Origin: Desulfobacterales bacterium
GTDB taxonomy: Bacteria; Desulfobacterota; Desulfobacteria; Desulfobacterales; JAAELO01
Length of the DNA stretch: 64,000 nt
Direction: 5' to 3'
NCBI GenBank assembly: GCA_024226555.1
Contig: JAAELO010000198.1
Location: 1 to 64,000 of the forward strand
The position numbers and the translations under genes were made by a program. Shown here one piece after another: positions 15,258-29,892 of the stretch (position 1 is its first letter; each line of letters opens with the position of its first letter). The notes beneath the pieces were generated by a model. That model did no database searches. It was not told the origin of the DNA and worked only from the letters and a program-made list of their open reading frames with translations.

Positions 15258-15390
15258 AGTTTAGAAAACCTAATAACTATAATCTTGATTAAAACTTTTA
15301 TAAAATCTACAAAAGAATAACGAAATGATTCGTTTATAAAAAGCTTTTATTTTATAAAGTTTACAGATATTTTTTTAACATAACGAAGTA
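15258..15390. repeat. Inverted-repeat element, degraded copy
   Basis: AAAACCTAATAACTATAAT at the left is followed by TCTTGATTAAAACTTTTATA and a central AATAACGAAATGATTCGTTTA that matches the core of the 26871-27058 copy. The right end ends in AACATAACGAAGTAA without the TTATTAGAGG terminus. It abuts the strong hairpin at 15388-15424. Confidence 0.5.
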
Positions 15391-15424
15391 ATTGGGTAGG
15401 TATTTTTTTTACCTACCCAATTAC
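15388..15424. terminator. Strong hairpin downstream of the six-gene operon
   Basis: Perfect 15-bp arms GTAATTGGGTAGGTA / TACCTACCCAATTAC surround a 7-T loop (A-rich on the minus strand). It lies 22 bp past the last operon gene (stop at 15446) and would block or protect the 3' end of the minus-strand transcript. There is no clear T-run after the stem on the minus strand, so a stabilising or processing role is possible. Confidence 0.6.
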
Positions 15425-15445
15425 TGTTTTCAGACTGTAACTCGA

Positions 15446-16652
15446 TTAGCTATTAACTTCTTCGGGGGTTGACCATAAATTATTTTCTACCAAACTTCCT
15501 GTTGTCACCATTTTTAGCATTTCATCAATTAACAAAATGTAATCATCTGTTAATTGCTGATTCGGATCTGCTGTAATTGCCTTTTCAGCAATTTTTCCAC
15601 AATATTCGCATTCTTCACCACATAGAGTTTGATCGCAACTGTTTTTTTTCTTTCTAAAGTGTTCCAAAAAACCATCCAGCTTGCGATTATCAATGTATAT
15701 ATTGGGTGCAGGAGTACTAACAGTTGCTTTCATTATTTCCCACTCTTCTTCAGACCAGTGTTTAATCCGATGTAGTGAATCTTCTGGAATACTCATAGCA
15801 ATAGGGCTTATGATATCTCCCAGATTACCCTCATACTTTCTTTCACTATAAGCTTTTACTGACCTCATCCCCCATTCACTTGGTAAGTGCCTTGCACTGA
15901 TCTTAATACTGTCGATCCCAATCTCTTCATAATATTTAACATCTTCAGGTCTTACAAATCTTGCCTTTATTATCTCCTTGTGATCAAGAACTCTATGTTT
16001 TATACACTTCATTACGCAATAGTCTATATATCTTCCTCCAAACTGATCATCTTTTTTACTTCCATGGGATTGCATATTATAATGATATGCCCGATAAGGA
16101 CAATGAAACAAACAATCTTCATTAGCAAGGATTTCAAGCTTTATTGGAGTAGCTTTTCGCATAGCTTCCAGCAATTTGAAATCACGATTATTATCAATTC
16201 CAATGCAGATTTCACCAACTCCAAGATGCTCAGTAAAGTATTTGACACTATGAACGGAACCGATCTGGTTAATTACAGAAGCTTTTACTCTAACTCCTGG
16301 AAGTTTCGTCTTTACCATTTCAATCAACGAAGGAATTGTAACAGCTACAGAATCAACACCAATGTCACCTATTAGTTCCAATTCTTCCATAATACTATTA
16401 ATTTTGGTTGGATCAAACTCCTTATTTCCAAAACAGGAAGCATTAAGGGTATAGCAAAAATCCATACCCAATCGATGGTACTTCTTCAATATATTCTTTT
16501 GCACTTTCCGGGGTTAGCTCTGGTAAAACAATGGATCCCCGACCACTTCCCATTGCTGACCAGCGAAAAGAGCCAAACATTTCAGTTACTCCCAGTTTCG
16601 AATAATGTGACAAGTACTCTTTTTCCTATTTAGTTCCGACTGATATTCTCAT
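15446..16652 (-). pseudogene. U32 peptidase-family protein, broken by stop and frameshift
   Basis: The reconstructed protein starts at 16652 with GGAG eight bases upstream (MRISVGT). Codon 9 is TAG (16626-16628), then EKEYLSHYSKLGVTEMFGS and GSGRGSIVLPELTPESAKEYI follow. An extra base near 16487 shifts the frame into KKYHRLGMDFCYTLNASCFGN. From there it is open to 15446 (352 codons from a GTG at 16504). The U32 family includes the oxygen-independent hydroxylases UbiU/UbiV, which hold a 4Fe-4S cluster on four Cys; here CLFHC and YCVMKC supply four candidates. It is the last gene of the operon led by the acyl ligase fusion. The truncated frame may still be translated, but it lacks the conserved N-terminus. 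Confidence 0.75.
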
Positions 16653-16680
16653 CTATATCTCCAGTTTTAAACATAAATTT

Positions 16681-17103
16681 TTAAGTATGTTTTAGCCCTC
16701 TGAAATAACCAAATGTGCAAACCATAAAGGCTCCCAATAATAACAGGTCTCCAATTCCATCCAGAAAAAGGATATTTAATGTTCCAAAAATTCCAGCCAT
16801 TGCGATTCCAATAATCGCTGAAACACCTGAAATATTTTTGATTTTCTCGCTCAGTTTGATGTCAGGCCAGATATGACCAAGAAATATAACTAAAAATGAA
16901 AACGAGATTCCGTGGGAGTGCACTGTTGAGTTCCACTTCCAATCTCTCCATGTTTGCCAGTAATTTACTAAATCACCCTTTTTGGCAAACCGCAACATGA
17001 TCTCTGCGTATGATTCATGGATTATACCATGGTAGAGTCCAGTCAGACACCACAGAATAATCCAGATAAGTCCGAACAAAATAAGATACTTTTTCATTTT
17101 CAT
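16681..17103 (-). CDS. Small integral membrane protein
   Basis: A 140-residue protein with about four hydrophobic segments (roughly residues 5-25, 60-80, 92-112 and 115-135). A charged loop, FAKKGDLVNYWQTWRDWKWNS, precedes STVHSHGISFSF. Histidines cluster around the second helix (HSHG ... GHIW), which could bind heme or metal, but no family is recognised. AAGGA lies at good spacing before the start. It is the fifth gene of the operon, 30 bp from its upstream neighbour and 28 bp before the U32 gene. Confidence 0.7.
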   Translation of the reverse strand: MKMKKYLILFGLIWIILWCLTGLYHGIIHESYAEIMLRFAKKGDLVNYWQTWRDWKWNSTVHSHGISFSFLVIFLGHIWPDIKLSEKIKNISGVSAIIGIAMAGIFGTLNILFLDGIGDLLLLGAFMVCTFGYFRGLKHT

Positions 17104-17133
17104 ATTATTTTCCTTTATTTTTTTTACTTCTTT

Positions 17134-18027
17134 CTATTTAGGTTTAAGTGCTGCCAGTTTTTTATATATTGACAGCATGATTCGATATTGAAAATCAGGA
17201 GACAACGGTCTGGATGTCAAGCTTGCCCAAAGCTTTGGAAAAATACCATAAACGATATCCGCATAAAGTTCTTTCACAGAAAAAAATGATGATTTTAATA
17301 CTTCTTTACGATTAGCAGTTGTCTTCAGCATATCTTTAATTCTACGGTTGTCTGTCACATGTCCCATCAAACCGGCACCTATAACATCAACATCCTTTAA
17401 TTGCTCCCAAACAGGTGAGGCAAGAAAATCCTCAATATTTACACTTCCTTTCCCCCAATCACTTGGAATGTTTAAAATATCTGTATCTACACTTATATAG
17501 GTTGGTTTTTCTTTCGAAAGAATACCATTTGGCAGTGGTCGGGAGATATCTGAATGAAACTGCATTTTTCCTGAATGCTGGAGTTTTTGATCAAATAATG
17601 GAATTCTGGTTTCATCATCACAACCACACATGATTACAGAATCAATCAACCCATTTTGTACAGCAAAAGAAACCCAGTTTCCACATGTAAGTATTCCATC
17701 ATTTTCCCGGTACTCCTGCGCATCCATATGATGATCAAACAATATTAACTGAACAGGTTTCTGTAATTCTTTGGTCAGTTTATATAACTTTGCTATTTCC
17801 AAATGGTGAAAATTTGATGAACCGGCAATAAGGAAAAAGTGAGATTTAAGAGAATCAACCAATTCTTCAACTTTTTGCCAATGGCAGAGCAAATTCAAAG
17901 ACTCCATCCCATCCAATTCAAATAAATGACAACTTTCATGAGATGCTTCTTTAGTGTAATATTTCTGCATCATCTGGTCTGTCATTAATATTGTGGCGTC
18001 TGATATTATATTCACTGTTCCATCCAT
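17134..18027 (-). CDS. Arginase-fold (ureohydrolase-like) protein with altered metal site
   Basis: A 297-residue protein resembling the arginase/agmatinase/deacetylase-like superfamily. The second metal motif is FDHHMDAQ (Asp98, His99, His100, Asp102) where arginases have DAHxD. The third is SVDTDIL (Asp181, Asp183) where they have SxDxDxxDP. The first motif, GGDHS in active enzymes, is replaced by AGSSNFHH around residues 69-75. CGNW at 115-118 is also typical of the superfamily. It may hydrolyse a C-N bond in the lipid made by this operon, or have lost activity; both are inference. Its ribosome binding site is weak (GGA adjacent to the ATG). Confidence 0.65.
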   Translation of the reverse strand: MDGTVNIISDATILMTDQMMQKYYTKEASHESCHLFELDGMESLNLLCHWQKVEELVDSLKSHFFLIAGSSNFHHLEIAKLYKLTKELQKPVQLILFDHHMDAQEYRENDGILTCGNWVSFAVQNGLIDSVIMCGCDDETRIPLFDQKLQHSGKMQFHSDISRPLPNGILSKEKPTYISVDTDILNIPSDWGKGSVNIEDFLASPVWEQLKDVDVIGAGLMGHVTDNRRIKDMLKTTANRKEVLKSSFFSVKELYADIVYGIFPKLWASLTSRPLSPDFQYRIMLSIYKKLAALKPK

Positions 18028-18064
18028 TCCAAATAGTTAGCAATATAAACTGTGTTTCCTCGTG

Positions 18065-18421
18065 TTAAAGCCACACACAATAGGATATAAATACAATTAC
18101 TCCAACACTTGACCAGTATTTAAAGAGACGATCACCCATAAGTTCAAAAGATGGCAAACTAACCAGATAATCGAACAAAAACATTCCGGTTAACAGAAAG
18201 GCTAATTCACGATACCAAATCGCATCAATCACAAGTCCTATCAAAACAGCAAGCCATCCAATCGAAAGCATTAAATCGGCAATACCATACATATGTAGTA
18301 CTTTGGGAACCAGTCCCATTTTTTTAGCATCCATTTTTTCAATAAACACCCTGTAAAAAGCATGTGCAAATCCCAAGATGCCAAAAACAGGAACACAGTA
18401 TTTAAATATTAAAACAAGCAT
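18065..18421 (-). CDS. Small integral membrane protein
   Basis: A 118-residue protein with about four predicted transmembrane segments, starting almost at the N-terminus (MLVLIFKYCVPVFGILGFAH). Polar loops contain EKMDAKKMG and HMYGIAD. No family is recognised. GAGGA precedes the start at good spacing. It is the third gene of the operon, 11 bp after the Old Yellow Enzyme gene, and could anchor or transport the operon product. Confidence 0.7.
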   Translation of the reverse strand: MLVLIFKYCVPVFGILGFAHAFYRVFIEKMDAKKMGLVPKVLHMYGIADLMLSIGWLAVLIGLVIDAIWYRELAFLLTGMFLFDYLVSLPSFELMGDRLFKYWSSVGVIVFISYCVWL

Positions 18422-18432
18422 ATTTTTTTCCT

Positions 18433-19710
18433 CTAATTTTGGTGAGCTAGCATTATATCTTTCTGTCTTTTTATATCTTCATTATAGCATTCAACAGGCA
18501 TAGAGCCCCACCTTGCAATACAGCCATTACAAAAATCACAGTCAGGACCAGGCTTGTCTTCTATTAAATTCTTATACAAATATGGATCAGAAATCATTGC
18601 TCGCCCAACAGATACGGCATCACATAATCCTTCTTGTATGGCGCTTTCAATCTTCGGTTTTGTTTGAAATCCTCCGACACAAATAACAGGGATAGAAAGG
18701 TTTTTCTTAAACTCAACAGCGTACTTAAGGTTAAATCCCTCCTGATAAGATCTTAGCCTATTTAATACTTTTGAGATCGGATATTTAAAGAGTTCCAGTC
18801 CATAACGTCTAAATGGTTTAACCTGATGCCCAAATCCCTCATTAAGAAAAGAGTGAAAATAAGTATCGAATTTGCCACGAATCATTGGGAAACCAGATTC
18901 ATAGTGACCAACTGTTATTTCAATTCCATCCATACCTTCTTCCTGAAGAATTCTGGCAATTTCAAGCATCTGGCTAATACCTAAACCATTGCGGGCAAAA
19001 AGTTTATCATCCCCATTAAGTTTAATAATTAACGGAAAATCCGGCCCAACTCTTTCACGAATCCCATGATAGGATTCCAGTAAAAAGCGCATTCGATTCT
19101 TAAAATTTCCTCCATATTCATCTGTGCGACGGTTAGTATATGGTGTTAGAAATTGATTGATCAAATATCCATGACCGCCATGAAGTTGAAGCCCGTCAAA
19201 ATCTGCTGCCTGACAGTATTCAGCCGCGGATGCAAAAGATTCGGTTATCTCCTTTATTTCATCATGCCTTAGAGCACGTGGTTTGGTTCCCATTAACTTT
19301 TCAGTCACATTAGATGCAGAGACCGCTGAATCAAGTCCCATTGCTTCTGGAACAATTTGACGACCACAGTGGTTGATCTGACCAAAAATTTTCGCTTTTC
19401 CTGCGTGAACAAGATCTGCCAAGCGTTTTAATCCTGGTATTTTGTCTTTGTTGTCAACCCCGGTCATTTTGTAGGAAGATTTACCGGTGGCTGAGGTGTA
19501 TAAATTGCCACTCATTATTAACGGGGTGCCTGCGTCTACGATTGGTTCGTAGAACTCAAGCAACTCGTCAGTCACAAACCCATCTTCTGTTGCCTTGGTT
19601 TCTGCTGTGGCGGTTTTAAATACACGACCTGCAATTTCTAATCCCCCTATTTTCATAGGTTTTTCTATTATACTTTGACTCTCTTCGATATTTTGAACCA
19701 TAGAATTCAT
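18433..19710 (-). CDS. Old Yellow Enzyme family oxidoreductase with cysteine cluster
   Basis: A 425-residue FMN-dependent TIM-barrel protein of the NADH:flavin oxidoreductase (OYE) family. Recognisable parts are the N-terminal KIGGLEIAGRVFKT, GQINHCGRQ, DGLQLHGGHGYLINQFLTPYTNRRTDEYGG, and VGRAMISDP near the phosphate-binding end. A C-terminal cluster Cys391-x2-Cys394-x2-Cys397-x10-Cys408 resembles the 4Fe-4S ligands of 2,4-dienoyl-CoA reductase-type members, but the FAD/NAD domain of those enzymes is absent. It would reduce an activated double bond. It is the second operon gene, 23 bp after the acyl ligase fusion, so the substrate may be an enone made by that enzyme. Confidence 0.85.
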   Translation of the reverse strand: MNSMVQNIEESQSIIEKPMKIGGLEIAGRVFKTATAETKATEDGFVTDELLEFYEPIVDAGTPLIMSGNLYTSATGKSSYKMTGVDNKDKIPGLKRLADLVHAGKAKIFGQINHCGRQIVPEAMGLDSAVSASNVTEKLMGTKPRALRHDEIKEITESFASAAEYCQAADFDGLQLHGGHGYLINQFLTPYTNRRTDEYGGNFKNRMRFLLESYHGIRERVGPDFPLIIKLNGDDKLFARNGLGISQMLEIARILQEEGMDGIEITVGHYESGFPMIRGKFDTYFHSFLNEGFGHQVKPFRRYGLELFKYPISKVLNRLRSYQEGFNLKYAVEFKKNLSIPVICVGGFQTKPKIESAIQEGLCDAVSVGRAMISDPYLYKNLIEDKPGPDCDFCNGCIARWGSMPVECYNEDIKRQKDIMLAHQN

Positions 19711-19733
19711 AATTCCTTTTCCAGAATAAAAAT

Positions 19734-22700
19734 TTATAAAAGAATCTGATCCTTAATTCTTTCAAGAACATTAATAACTTTATCGATCTCTTCATCTGTA
19801 TTCAACGCAGTTACAGTAAACCGCAGACCGCCACGATTAAGAGGAACGGCCGGAAATACTCCAGGTGTTAAAAGCAATCCTTCTGTTTGGGCCATATCAA
19901 TTGCTTCCAAAGTATTTTCCATATCCCCGATAACCACATAAATAATTGGAAAAAAATGACTATTATCCACCTCAAACCCCAGATTTTTTGCACCTATTAC
20001 CAGTTTTTCACTCAGGCGAAATATTGTACTTCGCAATGCATCGCCTTCGCTTTCATTAACTTTGAGCCCAGAAAGCCCACTTGCTAAAGTTGCAACTGGA
20101 ACAGGTCCTGAAAAAATATAGGTAGATGCCATTTGAAATTTTTCACGCATCTCATCATTCAAACATGTTACAAAAGCGGCATGGGATGAATATGCTTTTG
20201 AAAGACCCGCGATATAAATAATATGATCTTCCACGTAATCCATATCAAAGTGCCTAACGATGCCGTTTCCTTTATAACCAAAAGGTCTCTCTTCTGATGG
20301 AGATTCACCAATAAGACCGAATCCATGGGCATCATCAACGTAAAGATATGCATTATATTTTTTAGCCAACTCTGAATAAACCGGCAGATCAAGATATTTA
20401 ACGGACATGGAGTAAACACCGTCAACAGCGATGATAATTGGAAATTTATCCTGAAACCGTTTCAGTTGTTTTTCAAGATCATTAGGGTCTGCATGTTTGC
20501 AACGTACAAATGTGATTCCCCGATACGCAGCAAGTTCACAGGCTTCCTGAATAGTATTATGTGCTGAAGTATCGGCTATTATAACTCCATTTGGTGCTGC
20601 AAGAATCGGAAGTATCCCAAAATTCAGCATGGCTATATTAGGAAACAACAATGTGGATGGTGCGCCGATTAATTTTGCAATCTCCTGTTCCAGCTTAAGA
20701 TAGGGAGCGGGTGAAGCGACTGCACGGGTCCAACTAGGATGAACTCCCCATTCATCAATCATAGGGGATATAGATTTCATAATATCAGGGTGATAATCAA
20801 AACCAAGGTAGTTACAGGATGCAAAATCCATATATTCTTTATCTTCGATTTTTACTCTTCTCAATTCCTGTTTGGTCACTTCGCAATTTCGTTTGATAAT
20901 AGAATATTTTTCAAAAAAAGGGTATTTTTCAAGAGCTTCCAGATCTATAGTACCCAATGAGCGAATCGATTTATCACTATCATCAGCACTTAAACCTTCA
21001 TTTCTCAAACCAGATAAAATATCATCACATATAGAGAACTCTTCTGGATAATATGATGCTAAAAATATGGATGCTAACTCAATAGTATTACATTCCATCA
21101 TGGACTCAATTGCTATATCTATGCTGAATAATCTATTTAAATTTGAGATAAGCTCAACTAAAGTGATTGAATCAAATTCAAAATCATCCATATCTGTTTC
21201 AAATTCTTTTAATGGTATTTTGGTAATATGTGAGAGAATTGTGACCATAACCATTTGAATTTTTTGTTCCAATGAAAGGGAGCTTAAAATAACAGAATTT
21301 GAATTGGGATCAATTTTATCTCTTTTCCATAAATAAGTTACATTCAATTGACTGGAGAGAAATCCTTTCTTACAAAGATGTCTCTGGATCTTTCCACTGG
21401 TTGTTTTAGAAATACTACCAGCTTTAATAAATACGATTTGGGATATTTGGAATCCATGTTGTTTAATTACTTCACGATGAATTATGTCACCAATGTGTTC
21501 TAATTCTTCTACAGAAACAATACCTTTTTTGACTTCCTGAACTACAATCAAAGCTTCTGTTTCCAGAGAAAAAACAGCATTACAACCATCTCTAAGCGAA
21601 GCATGCATTTTTTCTATGGTTTGCTCTATATCCTGTGGATAGATATTCTGACCACGAAAAATAATTAAGTCTTTGAATCTGCCTGCAAAATATAAATGAT
21701 CGTCAATCACAAATCCCAAATCGCCTGTTCTCAAATATGGTCCATCATCAGTGTTTTTTATATATGCCTGGAACGTTTCTTCTGTTTCCAGCGATTTATC
21801 CCAATAACCCTTTGCCACGCTGCGACTTTTAGACCAAATTTCGCCAATTTCATTTGAAGAACATTGTTCTAAAGTAAATGGATCTGCAATGTTAATTTCT
21901 GTATCCGGGGCAATTTTGCCAATACTCACAAATGATTGGGAATTCGGATTTGTTTTATCAACTTTCTTTACTTTCCCTTTGGATATCTCCTTCCTGTCTA
22001 AATAAATGATCGGTTTTTCTTCCCCGACTCTGGAACAGGATATTGCTAACGTTGATTCAGCTTGCCCATAACATGGGAAGTGGGCTTGAGGATCAAATCC
22101 ACTTTCTTTAAAATAGCGTGAGAAGCGTAAAAGAGTATTCTCCCGTATAGGTTCTGCTCCATTTGATGCGATCTTCCAATGACTCAAATCCAGATCTTTT
22201 TTCTGGGATTCGCTTATTCTCTTGACGCAAAGATCATATCCAAAATTAGGAGATGCACTAATAGTAGCCTTTGTCTTTGAAATCAAATTTAACCATCTAA
22301 ACGGATTCTGAAGAAAATCCATGGGAGAAAAGAGGTAAATCTCACCGCCACAATACAAGCTTCCAAAAATTGTTCCAATCAACCCCATGTCATGATAAAA
22401 GGGAAGCCATGATACAAGTACTGATTCATTGGTTGTTTCAAAGCATTTATGAAGAATTTCCATATTATGTATTAGATTTTCATGTGTAAGAACTACTCCT
22501 TTTGGATCAGATGTTGACCCTGAAGTATATTGTAACATTGCTACCGTTTGCCCTTCTATTTCAAGGGGCTGGTAATGCTCTTTCCACATTTCAAGATTAT
22601 CATCTGTTGTTAACCATGTCTGTTCAGATTTGTACGATCCCCAATCACCCTCCTGAAAAACTGATTTTATTGGATCTTCCATGGATTTAACTGTAAGAAA

Positions 22701-23087
22701 TAATTCAATATTTGAATCAGTAACAACTCCCTTGAAACGATTAAAAAGTCGCGATGTAAGTGGTGGATATGCCGGAACTGCGATGACACCCGCGTAAAAA
22801 CAACCAAATAAAGCACTGATATATTCCAGTCCAGGGTTATATAGCAACAATGCGCGCTTTCCCGTTGCCTTCAATGCGATCAATCTTCCTGCAATAGCTT
22901 TGGCTTTTGACTCCAACTCTGCATAACTTAACTGGATATCACGCTCTGTTCCATCTTCAGACCATGAGGTAAAATGATACGCTGCTTTATTCTTATATAG
23001 ATGAGATTGCTTATTCAGCAAATCAACCAATGTTGATGTCTTTTGGGAAGTCAAATGGTAAGGGAAATTCATTGCTCTCTCTAACAT
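19734..23087 (-). CDS. Fatty acyl-AMP ligase - ACP - alpha-oxoamine synthase fusion
   Basis: An 1117-residue three-module enzyme. Residues about 10-590 are a fatty acyl-AMP ligase: QYTSGSTSDPKG for ATP binding, SWLPFYHDMGLIG typical of the FAAL class, and YLRTGDLGF. Residues about 610-700 are an acyl carrier domain with the phosphopantetheine serine at 640 (FEFDSITL). Residues about 735-1117 are a PLP-dependent alpha-oxoamine synthase like 8-amino-7-oxononanoate synthase or serine palmitoyltransferase, with VDDAHGFGLIG and the PLP lysine at 964 (GLSKAY). It should activate a fatty acid, load it on its own carrier and condense it decarboxylatively with an amino acid to an alpha-aminoketone; the amino acid and chain length are unknown. 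The start at 23087 has GGAG six bases upstream. It is the first gene of a tight six-gene operon. Confidence 0.88.
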   Translation of the reverse strand: MLERAMNFPYHLTSQKTSTLVDLLNKQSHLYKNKAAYHFTSWSEDGTERDIQLSYAELESKAKAIAGRLIALKATGKRALLLYNPGLEYISALFGCFYAGVIAVPAYPPLTSRLFNRFKGVVTDSNIELFLTVKSMEDPIKSVFQEGDWGSYKSEQTWLTTDDNLEMWKEHYQPLEIEGQTVAMLQYTSGSTSDPKGVVLTHENLIHNMEILHKCFETTNESVLVSWLPFYHDMGLIGTIFGSLYCGGEIYLFSPMDFLQNPFRWLNLISKTKATISASPNFGYDLCVKRISESQKKDLDLSHWKIASNGAEPIRENTLLRFSRYFKESGFDPQAHFPCYGQAESTLAISCSRVGEEKPIIYLDRKEISKGKVKKVDKTNPNSQSFVSIGKIAPDTEINIADPFTLEQCSSNEIGEIWSKSRSVAKGYWDKSLETEETFQAYIKNTDDGPYLRTGDLGFVIDDHLYFAGRFKDLIIFRGQNIYPQDIEQTIEKMHASLRDGCNAVFSLETEALIVVQEVKKGIVSVEELEHIGDIIHREVIKQHGFQISQIVFIKAGSISKTTSGKIQRHLCKKGFLSSQLNVTYLWKRDKIDPNSNSVILSSLSLEQKIQMVMVTILSHITKIPLKEFETDMDDFEFDSITLVELISNLNRLFSIDIAIESMMECNTIELASIFLASYYPEEFSICDDILSGLRNEGLSADDSDKSIRSLGTIDLEALEKYPFFEKYSIIKRNCEVTKQELRRVKIEDKEYMDFASCNYLGFDYHPDIMKSISPMIDEWGVHPSWTRAVASPAPYLKLEQEIAKLIGAPSTLLFPNIAMLNFGILPILAAPNGVIIADTSAHNTIQEACELAAYRGITFVRCKHADPNDLEKQLKRFQDKFPIIIAVDGVYSMSVKYLDLPVYSELAKKYNAYLYVDDAHGFGLIGESPSEERPFGYKGNGIVRHFDMDYVEDHIIYIAGLSKAYSSHAAFVTCLNDEMREKFQMASTYIFSGPVPVATLASGLSGLKVNESEGDALRSTIFRLSEKLVIGAKNLGFEVDNSHFFPIIYVVIGDMENTLEAIDMAQTEGLLLTPGVFPAVPLNRGGLRFTVTALNTDEEIDKVINVLERIKDQILL

Positions 23088-24092: not shown

Positions 24093-25580
24093 TCAGGCAT
24101 TCTCAAGAAGATCTTTATTCTTGTAGTCAAATATAAATCGCTTAACAAAACCCATACCCATAAGATTCTGTAATCTCTTAAAAACCATATGGATGATAAA
24201 TGGATTTTGATTCATTCTTAAGATCATGTTAATTATCTTTGTTGTACTTATGAGAAAGGGCGAGGGGCCTCTCATTCCAAGCAAGTAATAATTTGGATGT
24301 ATCAACGCTGCACGCATGGCAAGATATCTCATTCTTTCCATGCTTATGCCTTCCGGGGTATAACTTGCTGGAAACAGGTAGTTATCCCTCGGATAAAAAC
24401 TATTTTTAAGTTCTATCATCTCTGAGATAGGAGTTTTGTGATAGATTCTTATACCGACTGCTATTGAAACCATATCGCGCATAGATGATGCTTTTTTTAT
24501 TGTGTCCAGTGTTTCTATTACAGTCTCTTCAGTTTCTCCAGGTGCACCAAGCAACAATGACCAGACCATTGTTATTTTCGCTTTTCTAAGCAATTTTGCT
24601 GCTCTGAAGATATCCGCCTTAGTAAAATTCTTTCCCAAACCTTTTAGCGTTGTATCGGAACCTGCTTCGGCGCACATTATAACATACTCTATCTTAAACT
24701 CTTTCAAGAGGTCTACAAACTCCTGATCAACTCCTGCGGGACTTATTTCCATTGCAGTTAGTTTCAGCTTCATCTTTTTATCAGCTATTGCCCTGAGAAC
24801 ATCCTTGGCATGGGATAAAGGAAGGTTGAAAATACTGTCCATTACTCCTATATGGTTTATTCCGGTTTCTTTTACAAGATGTTCTATTTCATCTGCTACA
24901 TACTGTGGGTCTCGTATCCTGTACTTAGTACCTTCTATCCTGTTATATGTGCAATATGTACATTTGAGTGCACATCCACGTTTTGTTTGTATCTGAAGGG
25001 GAGTTGTCAGTTTTTTGTAACCATTAACATCCACATATTTATAAGGCTTTGCAAAGGGCAATGAATTAATATCCATAACGAACATCGGAGGATTGTCTTC
25101 CACAATATCATCTCCATCCCTCATAATCAGACCTTCCATTCCGTCCATTGGAATTTTACTCTCAATTCTCTTGAGAAATTCAACGATCGCAGCCTCACCA
25201 TCTCCACGTATAGCAAATTTAAGATCAAAATAGGATAACATTTCAGGGCCATTTATACCAACTGCCGGCCCTCCAATAACAATTGTTCCTGAGAACATTT
25301 TTTTTAATGGGTCAATGATATCCTTTTTTATCGGCTCAAGCAAAAATTCAGGATTTATTACAGATGCATTGTCCAGATTTCGTATGGTTATACCGATGAC
25401 TTCAGGACCATACTCTTTTATTATGTCTGACATATCGCTAACACAAGATTTTGAAAAAAAAAGATCAAGTGCCTTAACATCATGCCCGGCATCCTCAATC
25501 GCAGTGGCCACACAGCACATTCCGAATGGAATAGCAGGAATCTCTCTGAATCGATTGGAGTTAAGCATTAATACTTTCAT
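24093..25580 (-). CDS. B12-binding-domain radical SAM protein
   Basis: A 495-residue protein of the cobalamin-binding radical SAM class. Residues about 1-140 form a Rossmann-like B12-binding domain (PFGMCCVATAIEDAGHDVKALDL, then IVIGGPAVG). Radical SAM follows with the cluster motif Cys203-x3-Cys207-x2-Cys210 (RGCALKCTYC), then LLLGAPGETEET. Members of this class carry out methylations, ring contractions or other radical chemistry in natural-product and lipid pathways. The start at 25580 is preferred because GGGGGA lies at good spacing; a longer frame from 25670 has no such site. It lies alone, about 1 kb upstream of the acyl ligase operon on the same strand, so a functional link is possible but unproven. 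Confidence 0.85.
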   Translation of the reverse strand: MKVLMLNSNRFREIPAIPFGMCCVATAIEDAGHDVKALDLFFSKSCVSDMSDIIKEYGPEVIGITIRNLDNASVINPEFLLEPIKKDIIDPLKKMFSGTIVIGGPAVGINGPEMLSYFDLKFAIRGDGEAAIVEFLKRIESKIPMDGMEGLIMRDGDDIVEDNPPMFVMDINSLPFAKPYKYVDVNGYKKLTTPLQIQTKRGCALKCTYCTYNRIEGTKYRIRDPQYVADEIEHLVKETGINHIGVMDSIFNLPLSHAKDVLRAIADKKMKLKLTAMEISPAGVDQEFVDLLKEFKIEYVIMCAEAGSDTTLKGLGKNFTKADIFRAAKLLRKAKITMVWSLLLGAPGETEETVIETLDTIKKASSMRDMVSIAVGIRIYHKTPISEMIELKNSFYPRDNYLFPASYTPEGISMERMRYLAMRAALIHPNYYLLGMRGPSPFLISTTKIINMILRMNQNPFIIHMVFKRLQNLMGMGFVKRFIFDYKNKDLLENA

Positions 25581-26163
25581 ATTTATCCCCCATCTGTTTT
25601 TCTTTTCACACCTGACATCACATTGATGTAAGCTGTGGGTTAAATCAACAAATTCACTATATCGAATCAAAGACTTCTGACTCTTCCAGATTTCATATGT
25701 ATAAAAAAAGTGGATTCTATATGTGAAACATCATTATTATAAGATTACAACTCAGATACGTGCTTATGTTTTTATTGATATTGAATATAACTTCAACATA
25801 GAATATTTTCAAGAATTATTTAATTATTTTTACGGTATATTAAATTCAAAATTTGTTTTTAATTATAAAAATTGCTTATTAATAATCGGTTTTTAGCTCA
25901 TTAACAATTTTAATTAAATTAACTATGTTGTAATTAGTTTTAGAATAGCAATCTGTTTTAGGGGCGGGTTATAATAATTGATTGATTAACTGGAAAAGTC
26001 TTTAGAATTGAAGCTTCATAACTAACTATCAATAATTTTTTTTTCTTAAATGATTTATAGAAGTTTCATTTTTTTCTAAAACCCACTTAAGTAAAAACTT
26101 TTTTTAGACATTTCGCAAAACAAATCCTCTTCATAGAATAATTAAAACAATTAAAAAGAAAAT
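25581..26163. other. AT-rich gene-free region upstream of the radical SAM gene
   Basis: About 580 bases with no open frame of note. It contains ACTTAAGTAAAA at about 26089-26100, shared with the region upstream of the acyl ligase operon (23132-23143). Nothing else stands out. Confidence 0.5.
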
Positions 26164-28872: not shown

Positions 28873-29892
28873 ATGGATAATCTTGATAATATATTAGAAC
28901 TTATAAAGTTCAATGAAAAGACTGCACTGAAATTTAATAAGGTTGAAACTAAAATCCTTTCTATTTTAAATTTTAAAGATTTTTTTGAGGTACTTTTAAC
29001 AGATATAATTATAAGTTTTCAGATCCCTTTTGTCTGGCTAACTGTTATTGAAGAAACAGATTTTTCTGAAATGCTTGATAATATTGAATCTAAACTTGTT
29101 AAGAATCACTTGAAACTTATAAAAAAAGATGATTTCTATCAATACATAAAAGATAAAACTAAACCCCTTCTTATTAATGATGGTCTCAAAAAATATAGTA
29201 AGTTTATCCAGAAAGACATACTTAAACCTGTTAAATCTATAGCTATAGCTCCTATTTCTATAGATGGAAAACTGATAGGAAGTTTAAATCAGGGAGATAT
29301 ATCTGTTTCAAGATTTCAACCGGGAATTGATACATCACTCTTAGAGCAGTTAACTCTTAAAGTCTCACTTTGTCTTTCAAATGTTACCGCCCATGAAAAA
29401 TTAAAGTTCCTGGCTTATCATGATCCGTTAACAGGACTTTTAAACAGAAGGATTATGGAGACAGCTCTTAAAAGAGAGTTTGAACGGACAAAAAGGTACA
29501 ATAGCCCTCTTTCAGTTATTTTTTCAGATCTTGATAATTTTAAAATTATAAATGACAAGTATGGACATGATATTGGCGACAAAATTCTAATATTTATTGC
29601 TGATAGCTTAAAAGGTAATAGTAGGAGTACAGAGATTGTATCTCGTTTTGCCGGCGATGAATTTGTCATTATTCTTCCTGAAACAGACCTGAAAGCTGCA
29701 AAATATTATGTGCAGCGTGCTGAAGATTTCTTTAAAACAACTCCTCTAAAGATAGGTAATGAAAAACTATTTATATCTCTTAGTTTTGGGATTGCCTCAA
29801 CAGATTCTGATGAAGCATCGGATGCATTGGCTCTTTTAAAAATAGCTGATGAGGATCTTTACGTTGTTAAAAAAGAGAAGAAAAATATATAA
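28873..29892 (+). CDS. Diguanylate cyclase with N-terminal GAF/DUF484-like sensor
   Basis: A 339-residue protein. Residues about 1-165 look like a GAF/DUF484-type sensory domain, and residues about 175-335 form a GGDEF domain (HDPLTGLLNRR). The active-site signature reads AGDEF at 260-264 instead of GGDEF; the first Gly-to-Ala change is tolerated in some cyclases. The inhibitory I-site reads RSTE (251-254) instead of RxxD, so product feedback may be weak. There is no signal peptide or membrane helix, so it is cytoplasmic. No clear ribosome binding site precedes the ATG. Confidence 0.85.
   Translation: MDNLDNILELIKFNEKTALKFNKVETKILSILNFKDFFEVLLTDIIISFQIPFVWLTVIEETDFSEMLDNIESKLVKNHLKLIKKDDFYQYIKDKTKPLLINDGLKKYSKFIQKDILKPVKSIAIAPISIDGKLIGSLNQGDISVSRFQPGIDTSLLEQLTLKVSLCLSNVTAHEKLKFLAYHDPLTGLLNRRIMETALKREFERTKRYNSPLSVIFSDLDNFKIINDKYGHDIGDKILIFIADSLKGNSRSTEIVSRFAGDEFVIILPETDLKAAKYYVQRAEDFFKTTPLKIGNEKLFISLSFGIASTDSDEASDALALLKIADEDLYVVKKEKKNI

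Follow-up and report, generated by a model that had tools for sequence, protein, structure and literature searches.

The 64,000-nucleotide stretch of Desulfobacterales DNA analyzed here (contig JAAELO010000198.1, positions 1 to 64,000; hereafter the window), which belongs to a 7.7 Mb draft assembly of 904 contigs, contains a minus-strand operon found nowhere else among the samples searched and headed by a new variant of a fusion between a fatty acyl-AMP ligase (FAAL), an acyl carrier protein (ACP), and an alpha-oxoamine synthase (AOS). The reading that we favor, with a probability of about 0.45, is that the operon is expressed as a single transcript and directs the synthesis, by a new AOS subfamily, of a signal-like small molecule derived from a fatty alpha-aminoketone. 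Points in its favor include the layout of the operon and its terminator, the domain order of the fusion, the conserved AOS residues, the phylogenetic position of the synthase, and the pairing of related synthases with a membrane sensor in Actinomycetota.

Organization of the Operon

The features identified are as follows, all on the minus strand (evidence in brackets):

19734-23087, FAAL-ACP-AOS fusion P0001, 1117 aa (Pfam, NCBIfam)
21339-23039, FAAL domain, P0001 residues 17-583 (Pfam, NCBIfam, solved relatives)
21078-21245, acyl carrier domain with Asp-Ser attachment site, FDSITL (PF00550, E 2.8e-9)
19743-20876, AOS domain (alignment, NCBIfam scores, tree)
18433-19710, Old Yellow Enzyme (OYE), FadH-like, 425 aa (PF00724)
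18065-18421, small membrane protein P0003, 118 aa, no family (transmembrane [TM] segments, no Pfam match)
17134-18027, divergent arginase-fold protein P0004, 297 aa (PF00491, 26.1 bits)
16681-17103, small membrane protein P0005, 140 aa, HSH motif, no family (TM segments, no Pfam match)
15446-16652, U32-family gene, disrupted as assembled (PF01136, homology over two frames)
15387-15425, terminator-like hairpin, 16-bp stem (fold z = -6.1)

Six genes follow one another within 15446-23087, the U32 gene being the last. The first five (16681-23087) are codirectional, with successive gaps of 23, 11, 37, and 30 bp; gene 1 starts at an ATG at 23087, preceded by AGAAGGAGAACT, and a purine-rich ribosome-binding-like sequence precedes four of the five, that of the arginase-fold gene being unclear. 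The hairpin lies downstream of the U32 gene. In gene order, Pfam assigned the AMP-binding/DIP2-like/PP-binding/Aminotran_1_2 fusion, Oxidored_FMN, none, Arginase (weak), none, and Peptidase_U32. The spacing, these domains, and the 3' hairpin together indicate that the operon is a genuine unit, beyond chance. A preliminary description made from the sequence had proposed a six-gene unit with gaps of 11 to 37 bp; this holds for five genes and fails for the U32 gene, which is broken and whose open frame begins 176 bp from the preceding gene. About 1 kb upstream of the operon, the same strand carries a B12-binding radical SAM gene (24093-25670).

A New Variant of FAAL-ACP-AOS Fusion

The Pfam domains of P0001 follow the order AMP-binding, AMP-dom_DIP2-like, PP-binding, and Aminotran_1_2. 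FAAL models are among its top NCBIfam matches (PRK05850, 417 bits; FadD32, 376 bits; both below the exact-family cut-offs), and the closest relatives of the adenylation domain with solved structures (PDB) are of the FAAL type. As far as sequence comparison can tell, this domain is a fatty acyl-AMP ligase, FAAL-type along its whole length. The synthase domain has the characteristics predicted for a member of the alpha-oxoamine synthase superfamily; aligned with BioF, KBL, HemA, and serine palmitoyltransferase (SPT), it keeps the lysine that binds pyridoxal phosphate (PLP), the Asp and His of the DDAH motif, and the stacking His. It departs from these enzymes by a Tyr in place of the His of "LH..LE", by HPSWTRAVASP in place of the usual GSR loop, and by an insertion containing GNGIVRH. 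The preliminary description had recognized these domains and proposed that an acyl group is condensed with an amino acid to give an alpha-aminoketone, which the domain order and the conserved PLP residues support.

None of the curated NCBIfam AOS models (BioF, KBL, SPT, ALAS, and CqsA) was reached by the window AOS. The identities BioF (201 bits, cut-off 426), KBL (157, cut-off 460), and ALAS (125, cut-off 339) were rejected because every cut-off was missed, as was that of a CqsA/LqsA autoinducer synthase (model NF005526, 106 bits, cut-off 428). SPT was rejected both on scores (113-171 bits, cut-offs 500-670) and because the window AOS lies outside the SPT groups in a maximum-likelihood tree. 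There, it forms a clade (support 100/96) with L209 and with L208, the synthase part of a fusion from the Actinomycetota genome G1293, and this clade is nested in an Actinomycetota AOS group (support 99/97). The tree sets the window AOS apart from E. coli BioF, KBL, and HemA, from E. coli and Bacteroides SPT, and from a Legionella lytica AOS encoded beside phosphosulfolactate genes, which provided the sulfonolipid-type reference. Clustering of the fusion with a known pathway had been put forward as a result that would speak against a novel gene set; for the references included in the tree, of which the prodigiosin enzyme PigH was not one, there is no grouping with SPT, BioF, KBL, ALAS, or the sulfonolipid-type enzyme. 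The Legionella gene is carried by a plasmid (L123:7878-12749), in what may be a sulfonolipid locus: it adjoins a 2-phosphosulfolactate phosphatase gene and a gene annotated "phosphosulfolactate synthase", whose product has similarity to the FAAL portion of P0001 as well.

Judged by its sequence, the fusion is thus a new FAAL-ACP-AOS variant from a new AOS subfamily, of which we know of no characterized member. Transfer from phylum to phylum, or loss elsewhere, likely accounts for the kinship of the window and Actinomycetota synthases.

AOS Relatives Paired with a Membrane Sensor in Actinomycetota

Relatives of the window AOS with E < 1e-40 were found in 26 of 246 Actinomycetota genomes, at 36-49% identity in 23 of the 26. 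The G1293 fusion (locus L216) has the same domain order, is 41% identical over the FAAL and 48% over the AOS, and shares both AOS motifs; no OYE, arginase-fold, or U32 gene lies nearby, and relatives of these three are absent from the Actinomycetota AOS loci altogether. It diverges from the gene of a hybrid histidine kinase with HisKA, HATPase, two receiver (REC), and Hpt domains. In seven other loci, the AOS adjoins a GGDEF-EAL protein, and in L219 a kinase-like one. What the kinase and the GGDEF-EAL proteins have in common is an N-terminal multi-TM region of 320 residues without Pfam match, the candidate sensor, which is 38-45% identical between the L216 kinase and the others and has a mean column identity of 59% over seven sequences. 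In a profile search, a copy of this region was found within 5 kb of the AOS gene, and usually about 100 bp away, in 22 of the 23 genomes with an AOS at least 36% identical, and it was missing from the three genomes with a 32% AOS. The best matches in AOS-bearing genomes had E-values of 6e-85 to 2e-161; of 11 genomes without the AOS, six had only weaker matches, with E no better than 3.5e-59. Major facilitator superfamily exporter genes lie near the AOS in four loci and short-chain dehydrogenase/reductase genes in three. Candidate signal synthase-sensor pairs, in which an AOS accompanies the multi-TM sensor on a kinase or a GGDEF-EAL protein, are L216, L218-L223, L226, and L227.

Because output domains have been exchanged behind one sensor type, these data argue for the AOS and the sensor being a functional pair. 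Since AOS genes of the subfamily adjoin that of a dedicated membrane sensor in Actinomycetota, we also consider a signal-like amphiphile a more likely product class than a bulk membrane lipid. The preliminary description had left the choice between a membrane lipid and an exported signal; the latter gains indirect support from this pairing, and the former has gained none.

Several observations weigh against the favored reading. To our knowledge, the subfamily has no member with a known substrate or product. The 23 Actinomycetota genomes may include many close kin and hence not be independent counts. The profile search gave no sensor match in the genome of the window, so that the signaling reading of the operon is by kinship only; the nearest regulator in the window, a GGDEF protein (28873-29892), matches the Actinomycetota sensor proteins by its GGDEF domain only. 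A synthase-sensor system of the CqsA/CqsS kind, whose gene arrangement is seen in 22 of the 23 Actinomycetota genomes, was accordingly rejected for the window. Finally, the whole gene set occurs in no other sampled genome, and the broken U32 gene suggests a decaying operon or assembly errors.

The Gene Set Has No Second Example in the Genomes Sampled

Samples of the order, class, and phylum gave no second example of the six-gene set. A search of 95 other genomes from the order did not reveal the fusion, the other adenylation-ACP-AOS fusions there being about 28% identical. The arginase-fold gene was likewise missing from 290 further genomes of the class and from 394 in the phylum sample, apart from two weak matches at 26-27%. 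For the window AOS, there was no match above 32% in 197 other genomes of its own phylum and none above 33% in 150 Myxococcota genomes or in 398 Pseudomonadota genomes, the latter search having been run without a positive control. When the whole fusion was compared with 84,980 species in a nonexhaustive scan based on short peptide patterns and restricted to 80 loci, the best full-length match among those listed was 32% identical (L041) and was not accompanied by the operon. Within the collection of papers searched, literature on FAAL or OYE together with an oxoamine synthase yielded no described pathway with this gene set.

The preliminary description had expected a conserved neighborhood of five to six genes and had named separate occurrence of the genes in relatives as grounds for abandoning it. 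Relatives of the OYE, U32, and AOS genes do occur apart, which speaks against the set as a conserved unit. Two genomes from this order have OYE relatives at 58-60% identity, one within a run of LuxE-like, LuxC-like, and OYE genes (names by inspection; L156:8068-12508, OYE 58% identical) and one beside a TetR-type gene, and the OYE was therefore rejected as a marker of a conserved operon. U32 relatives lie beside a LuxC-like gene or, in two genomes, in a run of U32, methyltransferase, and type III polyketide synthase (PKS) genes (L176:7430-10558 and L177:140-3310; names by inspection). If the srs alkylquinone operon is taken as a model, the U32 protein of this run could be an O2-free hydroxylase. 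In one locus (L175:6458-11593), a LuxC-like gene precedes a tandem pair of U32 genes and genes for a radical SAM protein and an FAD oxidoreductase.

Accessory Proteins and the Disrupted U32 Gene

The OYE combines the FMN barrel (PF00724) with a CX2CX2CX10C motif close to its C-terminal end, as in FadH-type enzymes, and these cysteines probably bind an iron-sulfur cluster; at 425 aa, it is devoid of the C-terminal FAD/NAD domains of FadH. P0004 matches Pfam Arginase weakly (26.1 bits, cut-off 22) and retains the metal-site motifs DHHMD and SVDTD, no counterpart of arginase His141 being evident by eye. It has no relative above about 32% in the class and phylum samples, plasmids, or viral contigs. 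P0003 and P0005 have no Pfam match and matched nothing in plasmids or PDB. The structure models of P0004 and P0005 had predicted local distance difference test scores of 38 and 60, too low to look for similar folds.

The open frame of the U32 gene extends over 15446-16504, with a GTG start at 16504. Four U32 relatives of the same order align in this frame from about 16477 onward, with their N-terminal parts matching a different frame over 16652-16480 (E 8e-6 to 4e-3). Homology reaches an ATG at 16652, followed by an in-frame TAG at 16626-16628 (codon 9), and the frame switches near 16480. As homology to intact relatives spans two frames and an in-frame stop, the gene is disrupted as assembled, which may reflect either real decay or an error in the draft assembly. 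Its cysteine pattern, CX3CX31C plus a C-terminal CX4CX3CX2C, is a variant common to the four relatives and differs from the CX6CX15CX3C motif of U32 oxidases (PMC11574389); with its broken frame and different cysteines, the gene was not retained as a U32 oxidase. It resembles UbiU/UbiV, TrhP, and RlhA, which have that motif, in belonging to the cysteine-rich Peptidase_U32 TIM-barrel family.

Proposed Pathway and Alternatives

The domains strongly suggest that the FAAL would adenylate a free fatty acid and load it onto the fused ACP. Given the domain order and the conserved catalytic residues, the PLP domain would then condense the acyl-ACP with an amino acid, with loss of CO2, to yield an alpha-aminoketone. 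Everything chemical past this condensation is what we infer: the OYE would reduce an activated C=C bond, for instance that of an enaminone, and the arginase-fold protein might, more speculatively, hydrolyze a C-N bond. The U32 protein may formerly have added a hydroxyl group without O2, as its family can (PMC11574389), a step made doubtful by the present state of the gene. As the genome of the window has no such sensor, sensing of the compound may fall to another receptor or to a neighbor, or the compound may be used otherwise.

Two alternatives seem to us unlikely, to a similar degree. In the first, the fusion would make a sphinganine-like or 1-deoxysphinganine-like base, later built into a membrane lipid. 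In E. coli B and Caulobacter, sphingolipid synthesis normally opens with a FAAL-type ligase, an ACP, and SPT (PMC9386255), a similar set is present in L124, and Black Sea Desulfobacterota have been proposed as sphingolipid producers (PMC11334938). However, the window AOS falls outside the SPT groups and far below the SPT cut-offs, the operon contains no ceramide reductase, acyltransferase, or diacylglycerol kinase (DAGK) gene, and a more lipid-like AOS cluster exists elsewhere in the same genome (UbiA-OYE-ACP-AOS-DAGK-ThiL by inspection). This cluster (C761, L160:17-5663), with its UbiA-like, DAGK-like, and ThiL/PurM-like genes, is a second OYE-ACP-AOS set of the genome and as such was also counted in favor of the signal-like product. 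The second alternative is a cyclized natural product of the pyrrole, pyrazine, or piperideine type, in which the arginase-fold enzyme would free another amine to cyclize onto the ketone. An OYE and an amidine or amide hydrolase beside an AOS suit such chemistry, and AOS domains are known in PKS lines of other bacteria (L184 and L185), but the operon has no PKS, oxidase, or second carrier protein, and guanidine chemistry for P0004 is a guess from the fold, its Arginase match being weak. Less likely still, the operon would be a recent acquisition that is decaying and serves no function at present: the absence of other examples in the order, class, and phylum samples and the two U32 lesions would fit, yet the other five genes are intact, including a 1117-codon frame, and draft-assembly errors could account for the lesions.

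Comparison with Known Systems and Significance

Like CqsA and LqsA, which are encoded beside their sensors CqsS and LqsS (PMC3376566), the window AOS belongs to the PLP-dependent family of synthases that join an acyl thioester to an amino acid, and its Actinomycetota relatives adjoin a membrane sensor, of the kinase type in two loci. It differs by a score far below the CqsA cut-off and by the fused FAAL-ACP that supplies the acyl group in two cases; the Actinomycetota sensor has no Pfam match, with GGDEF-EAL as its most frequent fusion partner, and the genome of the window has no such sensor. From S-adenosylmethionine, CqsA makes an enaminone that is later converted and reduced (PMC3376566), and we infer that the OYE could act on a C=C bond of this type. 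The AasR-AcpR-SPT system of Caulobacter and E. coli B is similar in supplying its AOS from a dedicated ACP charged by an acyl-ACP synthetase, but consists of three separate genes rather than one polypeptide and has an AOS of a different clade, and the window has no ceramide genes. Two Desulfobacterales-type fusions (L038 and L039) and a planctomycete one (L041) share the adenylation-ACP-AOS order, but they are only about 25-32% identical to the window fusion, their AOS domains fall in other clades, and their neighbors are UbiA-, DAGK-, and ThiL-like or unrelated. In L038 and L039, of the same order as the window, genes of the UbiA-like, DAGK-like, ThiL-like, and methyltransferase types come after the fusion; shared by two genomes, this arrangement is a second AOS cluster that is conserved.

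A broader proposal, which we regard as tentative and less probable than the favored reading, is that AOS enzymes of this kind, sometimes fused to FAAL and ACP, form a new class of synthases for fatty aminoketone signals and work with an unclassified multi-TM sensor feeding a phosphorelay or cyclic di-GMP signaling; the window would hold an anaerobe's tailored, receptor-less version. If the favored reading is true, it would add one more synthase subfamily to the few known makers of alpha-ketone signals, and an anaerobic operon in which such a compound would be modified by the OYE and, in the past, by U32 chemistry. Alpha-hydroxyketone systems have been placed in aquatic gamma-proteobacteria and some other proteobacteria (PMC3376566). 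Of the leads obtained, we value most the AOS-sensor pair of Actinomycetota, which would extend synthase-sensor pairing, in a form open to testing, to a phylum not covered by these described systems.

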